Source: Eggerthellaceae bacterium (GTDB lineage: Bacteria; Actinomycetota; Coriobacteriia; Coriobacteriales; Eggerthellaceae). From it: a DNA stretch of 7,913 nt. A program made the position numbers and the translations under genes. Shown in pieces: positions 1 through 2,450 of the stretch. Each line of letters begins with the position of its first letter. Within the stretch, counting starts at the first letter, position 1. Under the pieces are notes generated by a model. The model was not told where the DNA came from. It saw nothing but the letters and a program-made list of their open reading frames with translations, and made no database searches. The DNA is taken from assembly GCA_017459485.1 (NCBI GenBank), contig JAFUCW010000395.1, positions 1 to 7,913 on the forward strand, read 5' to 3'.

Positions 1-2450
1 TGAACACCATCCCTGTTAGCCTGCGAAGCAGGCTCGTTAGACGCATGAAGCAGCGGAGCGCACGATGAAGAATCTGAATCAGCGAAGCGAGATTCAGATT
101 CTTCGAGCAGCGGAGCGGCTGACGCGGAACCGTCCCCCGGCGCGCCCTCCGGAGCGCCCCCCGCAGCGTCAGCCTCTCCGCCGTTCGCCAGAACGGCGGA
201 ACCGAGCAAAATCGCAGGCTCACCTTCGTAGAGCGCTTCGCTGCAGAGGCCCAAAAGGGCACTCGCCGCGTCGAACAGGCGCCCAACCGACGAAGTGTAG
301 GGCGTATTAATGTCCTGGTCGATCATGCGCTGACAAATGTCGGCCTCGTCCCCCAGGGCTTCGAGCAAGCAGGATGCAGCAGGATGATCAAGCAGGTCGA
401 AAGACCAGAGCACTCCGTATGCACAGCGCATCGGGTGTTTAATGGCCGCTGCTGCGCCTGGAAGCGGGAAATAGGCGAAGTTGGCAAGACGCTCGTAGGT
501 GTCCAAATTGGCAAGCAGCACTTCCCCACCCCAAATGGCGCCGTCGGGACCAAATCCTGTTCCGTCGAATGCGAATCCCACAACGGGTCCCTCCAACCCG
601 TTTTCCGCCATCGCGGATGCAATGTGCGCATGGTGATGCTGCACTTTGACTACAGGCAACGACTGACCGGCCGCCCATTTGCTTGTCAGGTATTCGGGAT
701 GCATGTCGCAGGCAACCAGGGTCGGATGCAAATCGAACAGGTGCTCATAGATGCGTTTCGAATCGAGCCAGGAATCGTACGTCGGGACGTTTTCCATGTC
801 TCCCATGTGCTGAGATACGAACGCTCGCCCATTGCCCAGTAGGCAGAACGTGTTCTTCTGCTCCGGACCCGTAGCAAACACCACGTTATTCCCAGGTTCC
901 ACCAGGCTTCCCGTACCAGCGGAGGAGGGCGCATCCGAGGGGATGGGTGCGCCCTCGGCGACCGTCTGAACACCGTTCCTGAAAGCCTGCGAAGCAGGCT
1001 CGTTAGAAGCATGAAGCAGCGGAGCGCACGATGAACCTTCCGAATCGGCGAAGCCAGATTCGGAAGTTCGAGCAGCGGAGCGGCGCGTCGCCGAGGGGGC
1101 ACCCGTCCCCTCGGATGCGCCCTCCGGAGCGCCCTCCGCGGCGGCGGGTGGTTCCGCCGTTCGTAGAACGGCGGAACTGAGAGGAAGCGGCGCATACCCA
1201 CGTGCGCGCCGAATGAACTGAATGGCGGTCTCTCCCTTGTCGAAGTCGAGCACGCGTACCACCGAATCGTCATAGCGAGAGCGAATGGATCTGTTATTCC
1301 CCAATAGCGCGTCGGCAATGCCAGCAAGCGCAACACGTGCTACTTCGTCGTCGGTCTGAATTGGTTCGTCGTGCACGTTGCCAGACGTGAACACCAGCAT
1401 GGAAGCACCTGCGCGCTCTTCAAAATCGTGCATGATCAGGTGCTGCAGAGGCGTTGAGGGAAGCATGACGCCCAATTCAGGAAGAGCATCCGCCAAACCT
1501 GGAGCAAACTCGGCACCCTTTATCTTGCGCAGTAGAACAATGGGCCGCGCCGACGAGCAAAGCAACGCCTCCTCTTCGGCGCTTACCTCGCACCACGAAC
1601 GGGCAGCCTGCACGCTTGGTACCATGACAGCAAACGCCTTGCCTTCACGCCGCTTCCGCCGGCGCAGTTCGGCAATCGCATCGACGTTGGAGGCGTCGCA
1701 GACCAAGTGGAAGCCACCAAGCCCCTTGACTGCCACAATCTTGCCCTCTAGCAGCATCTCCACTGCACGTCCAAGAATCGCATCCGACTCTGCACGCGTG
1801 GACCCCCACTCGATCTGGACGTCCCTGTGCGTACGCGCATCCCCTGCCTCACCTGCATTCGGGCCTGGATCAAGCACAGCGAAATTGATCGCAGGACCGC
1901 ACTCGAAGCATGCGTCAGGCTGGGCGTGGAACCGACGGTCTGCAGGATCGACGTACTCAGAAGCGCATTGCTTGCACATGTCGAACGACGCCATGGACGT
2001 TTTCGCGCGATCGTAGGGCAGGCCATCGATGATGGTGAAACGCGGGCCGCAGTTCGTGCAGTTGATGAATGGGTAGCGAAACCGGCGGTTTGCAGGGTCG
2101 AAAAGCTCCTGCAGGCAATCGTCGCACGTGGCAAGGTCGGGCGACACCAGGGTGGTCTCTTCCGTCTCTTCGGAGTCTGAAAAGCGTATCTCGAACGACG
2201 TATACCCCTCCAAAGGCACTTCCCGCATGTCGATCCGCTTGATCTGCGCCGCAGCTGGAGGATTGTCGTGCATGTCCATGACGAACTCGTCGACAAGCTG
2301 CTCTTCGCCCTCTGCATGGATATGAACCCCGTCGACAGCGTTGAGCACCCAGCCGTTGACAAGATGGCGCTTCGCCAAACGGTACACGAATGGCCGAAAG
2401 CCCACTCCTTGGACGATGCCTGTTACGTATATGTCGAGAGCATTAAGCAT
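1..2450 (-). CDS. hypF: HypF, carbamoyltransferase for [NiFe]-hydrogenase maturation, 3' end cut by window, with two repeat-encoded insertions
   Basis: HypF converts carbamoyl phosphate and ATP to carbamoyl-adenylate and passes the carbamoyl group to the HypE C-terminal Cys, the source of the CN ligands of [NiFe]-hydrogenase (family knowledge). The frame is open from 2450 to base 1: 816 codons and no stop. Visible in order: an acylphosphatase module with GIVQGVGFRPF (residues 11-21; R19 and N37 in the catalytic positions); two zinc-finger pairs (C109/C112, C131/C134 and C159/C162, C181/C184); a YrdC-like module (KGLGGFHLVCDA 242-253, TSGN 355-358, DDSV 394-397, ending RRARGYAP at 421); and a Kae1-like module (EQKNTFC 530-536, HHHAH 605-609, FDGTGFGPDGAIWGGE 628-643, SSVGRLFDAA 720-729, YEGE 741-744). 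E. coli HypF has about 14 residues between RGYVP and VLCLGADLKNTFC; here about 101 lie between RGYAP and VVFATGPEQKNTFC. A second insertion starts near residue 750. ATG 2450 gives the usual ~10-residue lead to GIVQGVGF, but its SD is weak. GTG 2510 is an in-frame alternative; the upstream stop is at 2541-2543. Confidence -1.
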   Translation of the reverse strand, partial: MLNALDIYVTGIVQGVGFRPFVYRLAKRHLVNGWVLNAVDGVHIHAEGEEQLVDEFVMDMHDNPPAAAQIKRIDMREVPLEGYTSFEIRFSDSEETEETTLVSPDLATCDDCLQELFDPANRRFRYPFINCTNCGPRFTIIDGLPYDRAKTSMASFDMCKQCASEYVDPADRRFHAQPDACFECGPAINFAVLDPGPNAGEAGDARTHRDVQIEWGSTRAESDAILGRAVEMLLEGKIVAVKGLGGFHLVCDASNVDAIAELRRRKRREGKAFAVMVPSVQAARSWCEVSAEEEALLCSSARPIVLLRKIKGAEFAPGLADALPELGVMLPSTPLQHLIMHDFEERAGASMLVFTSGNVHDEPIQTDDEVARVALAGIADALLGNNRSIRSRYDDSVVRVLDFDKGETAIQFIRRARGYAPLPLSSAVLRTAEPPAAAEGAPEGASEGTGAPSATRRSAARTSESGFADSEGSSCAPLLHASNEPASQAFRNGVQTVAEGAPIPSDAPSSAGTGSLVEPGNNVVFATGPEQKNTFCLLGNGRAFVSQHMGDMENVPTYDSWLDSKRIYEHLFDLHPTLVACDMHPEYLTSKWAAGQSLPVVKVQHHHAHIASAMAENGLEGPVVGFAFDGTGFGPDGAIWGGEVLLANLDTYERLANFAYFPLPGAAAAIKHPMRCAYGVLWSFDLLDHPAASCLLEALGDEADICQRMIDQDINTPYTSSVGRLFDAASALLGLCSEALYEGEPAILLGSAVLANGGEADAAGGAPEGAPGDGSASAAPLLEESESRFADSDSSSCAPLLHASNEPASQANRDGV
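18..34. repeat. Short hairpin with GCGAAGC apex, copy A
   Basis: AGCCTGC-GAA-GCAGGCT is a perfect 7-bp stem with a 3-base loop. It is identical to 984-1000. The coding-strand reading is AGCCTGC-TTC-GCAGGCT and encodes part of EPASQA. Confidence -1.
67..104. repeat. Long perfect hairpin of copy A
   Basis: GAAGAATCTGAATC (67-80) is exactly complementary to GATTCAGATTCTTC (91-104), giving 14 bp around a 10-base loop holding GCGAAGC (82-88). It is flanked by direct repeats AGCAGCGGAGCG at 49-60 and 106-117. It corresponds to 1033-1069 in copy B, where the stem is kept with different bases. Confidence -1.
117..174. repeat. Inverted repeat enclosing the GC-rich part of copy A
   Basis: GGCTGACGC (117-125) and GCGTCAGCC (166-174) are perfect 9-bp arms around 40 bases that include the shared block 142-159. 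Copy B has a different inverted repeat at the matching place (1091-1114), so the architecture is similar although the bases differ. Confidence -1.
177..200. repeat. Outer hairpin of copy A
   Basis: TCCGCCGTTC (177-186) pairs with GAACGGCGGA (191-200) around the loop GCCA. In hypF sense this is the upstream end of the second insertion and encodes SAVLANGG. It matches 1151-1177. Confidence -1.
924..962. repeat. Left terminal inverted repeat of copy B
   Basis: The reverse complement matches 1087-1125 at 37 of 39 positions; the differences are at 951 versus 1098 and at 944 versus 1105. The arm can also fold on itself: GAGGGCGCA at 925-933 pairs with TGCGCCCTC at 948-956. Local and long-range pairings are therefore mutually exclusive. 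Confidence -1.
984..1000. repeat. Short hairpin with GCGAAGC apex, copy B
   Basis: Identical 17-base perfect hairpin to 18-34. It lies inside the terminal inverted repeats of copy B, in the same relative place as in copy A. Confidence -1.
1033..1069. repeat. Long hairpin of copy B
   Basis: CTTCCGAATC (1037-1046) pairs with GATTCGGAAG (1057-1066). After one unpaired C (1036), GAA (1033-1035) pairs with TTC (1067-1069). The loop is GGCGAAGCCA, with GCGAAGC at 1048-1054 and a possible extra GGC/GCC pairing. It is flanked by the 12-bp direct repeats at 1015-1026 and 1071-1082. Confidence -1.
1087..1125. repeat. Right terminal inverted repeat of copy B
   Basis: Partner of 924-962. It can also form a local hairpin, CCGAGGGG (1091-1098) with CCCCTCGG (1107-1114). 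Its outer end, GCGCCCTCC, continues into the block GGAGCGCC shared with copy A, so the duplicated unit extends past this repeat toward the hairpin at 1151-1177. Confidence -1.
1151..1177. repeat. Outer hairpin of copy B
   Basis: GTTCCGCCGTTC (1151-1162) pairs with GAACGGCGGAAC (1166-1177) around a 3-base loop: a perfect 12-bp stem. In hypF sense it is the start of the first insertion, encoding SAVLRTAE directly after RRARGYAPLPLS. Confidence -1.

Follow-up and report, generated by a model that had tools for sequence, protein, structure and literature searches.

Why does the hypF gene at the start of one Eggerthellaceae contig carry two long inserts of what looks like the same palindromic DNA while its reading frame stays open, and where did these inserts come from? 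The gene lies in a stretch of 7,913 nucleotides which we refer to as the window (GenBank assembly GCA_017459485.1, contig JAFUCW010000395.1; G000:C324:1-7913 in our numbering, from a fragmented metagenome assembly, G000, of 504 contigs with a completeness of 72%), and a first-pass annotation made from the letters alone had described the inserts as two copies of one structured repeat. We consider it probable that they are two separate copies of an Eggerthellaceae repeat family, likely a small non-autonomous mobile element, and that copies in genes are likely kept only where one harmless frame adds a flexible loop to the protein. For comparison we used five sister genomes of the window's assembly (G001–G005, which form one genus with G000), four of which were paired with records at 100% nucleotide identity across the hypF region (G001, JAFUCE010000154, RGIG4361; G002, CACXMZ010000007, RUG11413; G004, CAMORQ010000049; G005, CAJOJB010000047). 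The closest HypF relatives come from metagenome assemblies labelled Eggerthellaceae or Coriobacteriaceae bacterium, including some from red deer and roe deer, and together with the matched sister records these bear out the actinobacterial host which had been guessed from the sequence.

The identity of hypF is given by the TIGR00143 profile (651 bits against a cut-off of 466), and its frame runs uninterrupted on the minus strand from 2450 to 3 across both inserts. The gene continues on contig C155, which overlaps the start of the window by 18 nt and gives a joined HypF of 994 amino acids in frame; this overlap falls within the repeat, and the join also rests on the frame and the gene content. 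The two inserts share a direct repeat (1–98 versus 967–1064; 98 bp, 88% identity, ungapped) and further blocks in matching order (102–119/1067–1084, 100%; 190–206/1165–1181, 94%), confirming that one unit is present twice in frame. Insert 1 also contains an inverted repeat of 39 nt (924–962/1087–1125) which is 95% complementary, and the fold of 920–1130 is far stronger than those of 200 dinucleotide shuffles, with z-scores of -10.4 for one strand and -11.2 for the other. The coding strand of hypF is the complement of the strand on which the conserved motifs of the insert 1 core are read, which we call the motif strand. The claim that both inserts carry the same hairpins in the same order holds for the order of the matching blocks but not for their outer stems (P1), which differ in sequence, and the 924–1180 given for insert 1 is too narrow, its mosaic covering about 895–1178.

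Insert 1 occupies the linker between the YrdC and Kae1-like parts of HypF, and a length of about 100 residues where about 14 are usual had been proposed for it. The linker is indeed longer than that of every one of 15 aligned HypF orthologues (four of them from the sister genomes), but linker length varies among the orthologues, with some 50–65 residues in L048 and L049 without the repeat. AlphaFold2 gave a predicted local distance difference test (pLDDT) score below 50 at residues 430–519, 759–780 and 787–798, and mostly above 80 in the domains; insert 1 is thus predicted to be disordered, in agreement with the tolerated low-complexity loop which had been supposed, noting that a low pLDDT is equally expected for an insert without homologues.

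The unit is not confined to hypF. A blastn search with positions 967–1090 as the query found 11 copies in G000, and this and the other copy numbers for this assembly are lower bounds because contigs end inside the repeat (window position 1 with the end of C155, plus C142 and C144). Seven of the 11 copies are in six protein genes, namely hypF (twice), purL (FGAM synthase), dnaX, ftsH, rnr (RNase R) and a tsaB-rimI-tsaD fusion, where the copy sits between the RimI and TsaD parts; the insert in rnr is within the catalytic RNB region. The other four are intergenic, with one of them behind groEL. Copies were also found in three of the five other genomes of the genus, with G002 added as copy-bearing by the anchor pattern and core model described below, and those in genes are in ftsH, a U32 gene and mnmA of G001, and in ftsH, a second U32 gene and purL of G004, the last at a different site from that in G000 (gene names were checked against NCBIfam profiles, and dnaX by homology). 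The counting of copies and the scoring of in-frame against intergenic positions, both proposed in the first-pass annotation, have therefore returned a dispersed family with in-frame copies in unrelated core genes. A conserved protein domain carried without any DNA repeat, named there as an outcome that would refute the reading, was not seen and is rejected, as HypF residues 448–520 matched none of 253 candidate proteins at E <= 1e-3 (a search that tried proteins of similar length sharing short words only). We note separately that ftsY of G004 (L249:323-1885) has a copy which is degraded as DNA and recognisable by its peptide only, and this was left out of the counts.

The sites occupied in one genome are empty in others. 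Insert 1 is absent from hypF in all five sister genomes and in the 15 aligned orthologues (four being the same genomes), and insert 2 is absent in the four whose sequence was read at the site (G001, G002, G004 and G005), which is the result the proposed alignment of orthologues had been meant to deliver. There are about 117 extra residues at purL site A in G000 where G001, G002 and G005 have 6–7 and G004 has none, making this site empty in all four sister genomes with a match, and the tsaB-rimI-tsaD insert is absent in all five. The RNase R insert is absent in G002, G004 and G005 (G003 was left out of the FtsH and RNase R comparisons), the insert which G004 has at purL site B is absent in G001, G002 and G005, and the U32 site is empty in G002, G003 and G004, with the fetched stretches L254 and L255 lacking the anchor motif. 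The exact ends of the inserts and any target duplications are unreadable because these loops are already variable. Other insertions occur in the same proteins: G001 RNase R (L193) has about 65 residues unrelated to the core in the same loop as the G000 insert, and G000 purL (L166, before the amidotransferase domain) has about 40 extra residues, also unrelated to the core, at site B of G004. The HypF of G001 (L046) carries a second repeat peptide, ETISGTsETLADsSTTyG, in frame and in a different loop, and this peptide is found again in frame in the FtsH of G000 (L012) and in an intergenic stretch of C408 (L010).

A small tree of 21 copies places hypF copy 1 with the purL copy (support 0.985) and hypF copy 2 with the ftsH copy (0.856), and because each is nearer to one of these than to the other, local duplication does not account for the two hypF inserts. 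The tsaB-rimI-tsaD copy groups with the groEL copy of G000 (0.905), the ftsH and U32 copies of G004 group together (0.997), as do the three copies of G001 (0.998), and in general the G000 in-gene copies plus the intergenic C408 copy, the G004 copies and the G001 copies each fall near their own kind, even where they occupy the same ftsH tail. The tree fits bursts within lineages or concerted evolution.

Thirteen of the 15 in-gene copies are read in the same one of the six frames, which we refer to as -0, giving the peptide SSCAPLLHASNEPASQ..VQT. All 14 in-gene copies tabled are open in frame -0 and in frame -1 as well, and three of them in a motif-strand frame, and the orientation of the in-gene copies follows from the stops which the motif strand carries in most frames. 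The use of frame -0 over the equally open -1 suggests selection for a soluble, disordered peptide.

Beyond the genus, the anchor pattern (up to two mismatches) was found in 55 of 138 family genomes, part of which are probably chance matches because two mismatches were allowed and a reversed control matched once each in nine genomes. A covariance model built from 36 cores (R1) matched 42 of the 138 family genomes and 20 of 48 genera, with matches per genome ranging from 0 to at least 23 (the scoring cap) among relatives, and in a phylum sample, using stricter filters and scoring eight candidates per genome, the core was matched in four of 396 genomes, all of them Eggerthellaceae. The exact pattern had no match in viral contigs and the repeat had none in the plasmid sequences searched, and a phage or plasmid vector was rejected on these grounds; nor was anything on such an element listed for Eggerthella, Eggerthellaceae, Adlercreutzia and Coriobacteri in the open-access library searched. 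We inspected 23 copies in the genus (leaving out two matches in G001, one in G004, six in G002 and one in G005) and 46 outside. Within the genus, 13 of the 23 are in genes (the dnaX and rnr copies being reassigned from intergenic to in-gene by homology, while the C144 copy was judged intergenic by reading and the G004:C50 copy by its position behind groEL). Outside it, a codon-based gene finder puts 44 of the 46 between genes, an upper bound because it missed copies at contig ends, and the remaining two in one SufB/D-like gene (G058). A copy is found behind groEL in G000 (L015), G005 (L026), G002 (L145) and G004 (L250), apparently inherited in place; GroEL was assigned by profile in G004 only, and the genes in G000, G002 and G005 are ones we take to be groEL from the Gly-Gly-Met tail. 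Inverted pairs of copies about 150–480 bp apart, similar to doublets of repetitive extragenic palindromic (REP) elements, were seen at L138, L139, L140, L141 and L143.

Of 66 sites, 20 were without one of the two anchors and the other 46 gave rows, of which 36 make up a MAFFT alignment (A1) that leaves out L147 and nine near-duplicates or odd rows. The architecture of the element, as read from the sites, begins with the variable P1 outer stem followed by TCTGAACACC, a linker, the P2 hairpin and a T/A-rich stretch, and continues with GCATGAAGSAGCGNAGCGCAyGA, the P3 hairpin (of very variable length), GArCAGCGGArCGG and the other P1 arm, and the fold predicted from it has a long outer stem and, inside this, two hairpins (the positions in the window are listed in Table 1). 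In G062, most copies among those listed have a long stem replacing the linker and short P2. Two long-range pairs swap between C-G and U-A and neither is broken (29:7 and 26:10 of 36 rows). Covariation was counted on a structure drawn by eye from A1 because RNAalifold did not recover P2, and the percentage paired, the both-sided cells and the covariation score were reached by none of 500 shuffles. The P1 stems of hypF copy 1 and purL can be compared directly over 39 pairs, of which 31 are identical standard pairs, six differ on both sides with the pairing preserved, and two have one-sided changes turning a wobble or mismatch into a standard pair; the palindrome is maintained inside two coding regions. 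The P2 stems vary freely and have a C(GNA)G triloop at the apex in 52 of the 66 sites (no shuffled control), and DNA mini-hairpins with GNA loops on G-C stems are described as extraordinarily stable (excerpts of PMC4686876). Across the 46 rows the P1 mismatches are strand-asymmetric (A.G 70 versus C.T 8), and G.T and A.C are even (42 versus 49) with no wobble bias toward RNA. The P2 triloops and the P1 mismatch asymmetry speak for a motif strand that folds as DNA.

Table 1. Location of hypF, the two inserts and their component parts in the window.
Feature	Position	Strand	Remarks
hypF (carbamoyltransferase HypF)	3..2450	-	816 codons in window, rest on contig C155
Insert 1	895..1178		in-frame mosaic in YrdC/Kae1 linker; ends approximate, by eye against empty sites of four sister species
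P1 outer stem 5' arm, insert 1	924..962	+	95% complementary to 1087-1125
Conserved core, insert 1 (TCTGAAC ... GAGCAGCGGAGCGG)	965..1083	+	model score 121.6 bits for 949-1100
P2 hairpin, insert 1	984..1000	+	apex C(GAA)G
Anchor motif GCATGAAGCAGYGNAGCGCA, insert 1	1009..1028	+	pattern match
P3 hairpin, insert 1	1036..1066	+	fold prediction
P1 outer stem 3' arm, insert 1	1087..1125	+	complementarity to 924-962
REP-like hairpin GTTCCGCCGTTC..GAACGGCGGAAC	1151..1177		one end of in-gene unit, insert 1
Insert 2	1..204		in frame in Kae1-like module after YEGEPAILL; part cut off by window edge, remainder on C155; end approximate
Conserved core, insert 2	1..118	+	first two bases outside window; 97.2 bits for 1-135
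P2 hairpin, insert 2	18..34	+	
Anchor motif, insert 2	43..62	+	
P3 hairpin, insert 2	70..101	+	
P1 outer stem 3' arm, insert 2	121..150	+	5' arm on C155; by eye from joined sequence
REP-like hairpin, end of insert 2	176..202		

We envisage an element which would copy into new sites, often just beyond the 3' ends of genes, and whose insertions into genes would as a rule survive only with the complement of the motif strand coding. The surviving frame would give the Ser/Ala/Pro/Glu-rich peptide and not the also-open Arg/Phe/Leu-rich one, and the survivors would occupy linkers, loops and tails and be translated, with harmful insertions being lost so that those in genes have been filtered by frame and by the tolerance of the protein. 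During movement, an enzyme which we did not find would probably recognise the motif strand folded as single-stranded DNA. A bolder version, which we offer tentatively and hold to be rather doubtful, is that the element lives family-wide as a folded single DNA strand on GNA mini-hairpins, copied by an enzyme, with one P1 arm templating the other so that the long stem stays perfect, and that in one ruminant-gut genus it adds disordered loops to essential proteins.

A number of observations weigh against the mobile-element explanation or parts of it. We found neither a transposase nor a target duplication for the element, nor ends that are fixed, and Y1 transposase genes were undetected in the copy-rich G021, G025 and G062. 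The signs of single-stranded DNA are indirect and the P2 triloop and P1 mismatch counts are not independent, while the P3 loops show no rule comparable to the GNA of P2 and the motif strand and its complement fold about equally well. RNAalifold gave a weak consensus for A1 (-3.13 kcal/mol), pairing columns 68–79 and 69–78 instead of P2, and two of the five covariation measures are not above the shuffles (both-side changes, 5 versus a mean of 5.5; further pair types, 9 versus 12.9). The tsaB-rimI-tsaD copy has the opposite orientation with the motif strand coding, the second SufB/D copy is in frame -1 at the anchor, and the gene finder missed two of 12 in-gene copies in the genus (dnaX and rnr, both at contig ends). 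Support for the G004 trio is 0.261 and several deeper nodes have values of 0.000–0.343, and the clustering of copies by genome could be the product of concerted evolution.

The same repeat might instead be a structured RNA or mRNA 3'-end element (a terminator or stabiliser) selected for its RNA fold, with the in-gene copies as by-products, and this is a possibility we take seriously while holding it unlikely. It would account for the conserved core with covarying pairs, including the two unbroken long-range C-G to U-A swaps, for the copy retained behind groEL in four genomes, and for the orientation of the gene on the 3' side, which by hand count is read toward the element at 37 of the 51 intergenic copies (p 0.002 in a binomial test, with copies that are not independent), but the upstream mRNA would in these contexts bear the complement of the purine-looped motif strand, the outer stem has no wobble preference, and the number of matches per genome differs widely between relatives. 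A known RNA family was rejected, as the window and six loci had no covariance-model match in Rfam 15 up to an E of 1. Mobilisation of a GTAG-type REP by a REP-associated tyrosine transposase (RAYT, a Y1 transposase) shares with our element the palindromic form, the intergenic position at gene 3' ends and the occasional inverted pairs; several copies have GTAG or GCAG ahead of the outer stem (by eye) and REPs within genes are known (excerpts of PMC3733652). Against it, the unit is about 120–300 bp and not 20–40 bp, GTAG is not constant, and Y1_Tnp is present in 20 of the 42 family genomes that have the element and in 51 of the remaining 96 (presence in the genome, not the neighbourhood) and missing from the three richest in matches, G021, G025 and G062. 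RAYT mobilisation is therefore unsupported, with Y1 transposases having no association with the element, and we regard it as decidedly improbable.

Selection might also act on the peptide itself, as a useful linker or tag spread by recombination between genes. The one frame used by 13 of 15 in-gene copies would be expected from this, as would the similar peptide retained by the degenerate ftsY copy and the greater difference at third codon positions (1029 versus 787 and 719, counted over 45 pairs, not independent, from 10 copies that include the intergenic C408 copy), but nonsynonymous differences are seen in more codons than synonymous ones (1147 versus 426), the same proteins in sister species have no insert, and most inspected copies outside the genus are intergenic. 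The outer-stem arms moreover remain complementary across two genes, for which a peptide has no need, and we consider this explanation improbable. Removal of the insert from the mRNA in the manner of a tiny intron is very improbable: the strong fold on both strands and the position of the rnr insert inside the catalytic RNB region could be explained by it, but the copies inside genes are in frame and free of stops, and splicing would require neither. Local duplication of a native HypF loop, which the first-pass annotation had itself raised for a unit restricted to hypF, would suit the similarity of the two inserts and their position in one gene, in loops that vary among orthologues; it is refuted by the copies elsewhere, both inside other genes and between genes, and by the tree, in which the hypF copies are not sisters, and we find it scarcely credible.

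The best-known cases of palindromic elements lying in frame in many core genes come from two intracellular genera, Rickettsia and Wolbachia. The Rickettsia palindromic elements (RPEs) and Wolbachia repeats are described as palindromic, of 100–150 bp, and dispersed both in intergenic DNA and in frame within conserved genes, and at least one RPE insert (in R. conorii gmk) is translated in an active enzyme (excerpts of PMC2229807, PMC10969869 and PMC3767692). These protein-coding elements are the closest known kind, as the Eggerthellaceae element is also a dispersed palindromic repeat of about 100–150 bp with copies inside open reading frames that are not disrupted; we have set it beside the RPE families by description, and do not class it as an RPE. 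Unlike the RPEs of the Rickettsiales, its core is seen only in Eggerthellaceae among the genomes searched (no Rickettsiales among them), its outer stem is variable but paired, its GC-rich mosaic units reach about 300 bp, and outside one genus nearly all inspected copies are intergenic.

Other families share part of this description. REPs, bacterial interspersed mosaic elements and the RAYT-linked GTAG REPs are also palindromic, located at gene 3' ends and sometimes paired, and our mosaic includes a small REP-like hairpin, but the element differs from GTAG REPs and REPtrons in having no Y1 association, a larger size, a conserved multi-hairpin core, and no 20–40 bp stem-loop with a constant GTAG end. 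Bacterial miniature inverted-repeat transposable elements (MITEs; ERIC/RU, Correia and the QMITE of Coxiella) are likewise small and dispersed with a long terminal stem, and some families fuse in frame with genes (excerpts of PMC2229807 and PMC5896051). In contrast, our element has no constant terminal inverted repeats, the P1 arms differing between copies, and no target duplication was seen, though the empty sites lie in diverged, variable loops. Set beside RPEs, Wolbachia repeats, in-gene REPs and MITE fusions, the Eggerthellaceae family would appear to be separate, and if this is true, its presence in gut-associated bacteria would suggest that the in-frame palindrome phenomenon arose more than once. 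With sister species in which a given core gene either has or lacks the repeat, the phenomenon would become testable in another group, as regards the movement of the repeat, the survival of a single frame and the limits of what a core enzyme can tolerate.

The REP-like hairpin, TTCCGCCGTTC..GAACGGCGGAA, is an entity of its own, with 25 matches at four mismatches or fewer in the scanned stretches of G000, including L011, L012 and L027 (position 2138). Five are in genes (hypF twice, ftsH, dnaX and the aconitase gene acnA), and the copy in AcnA stands without the core.

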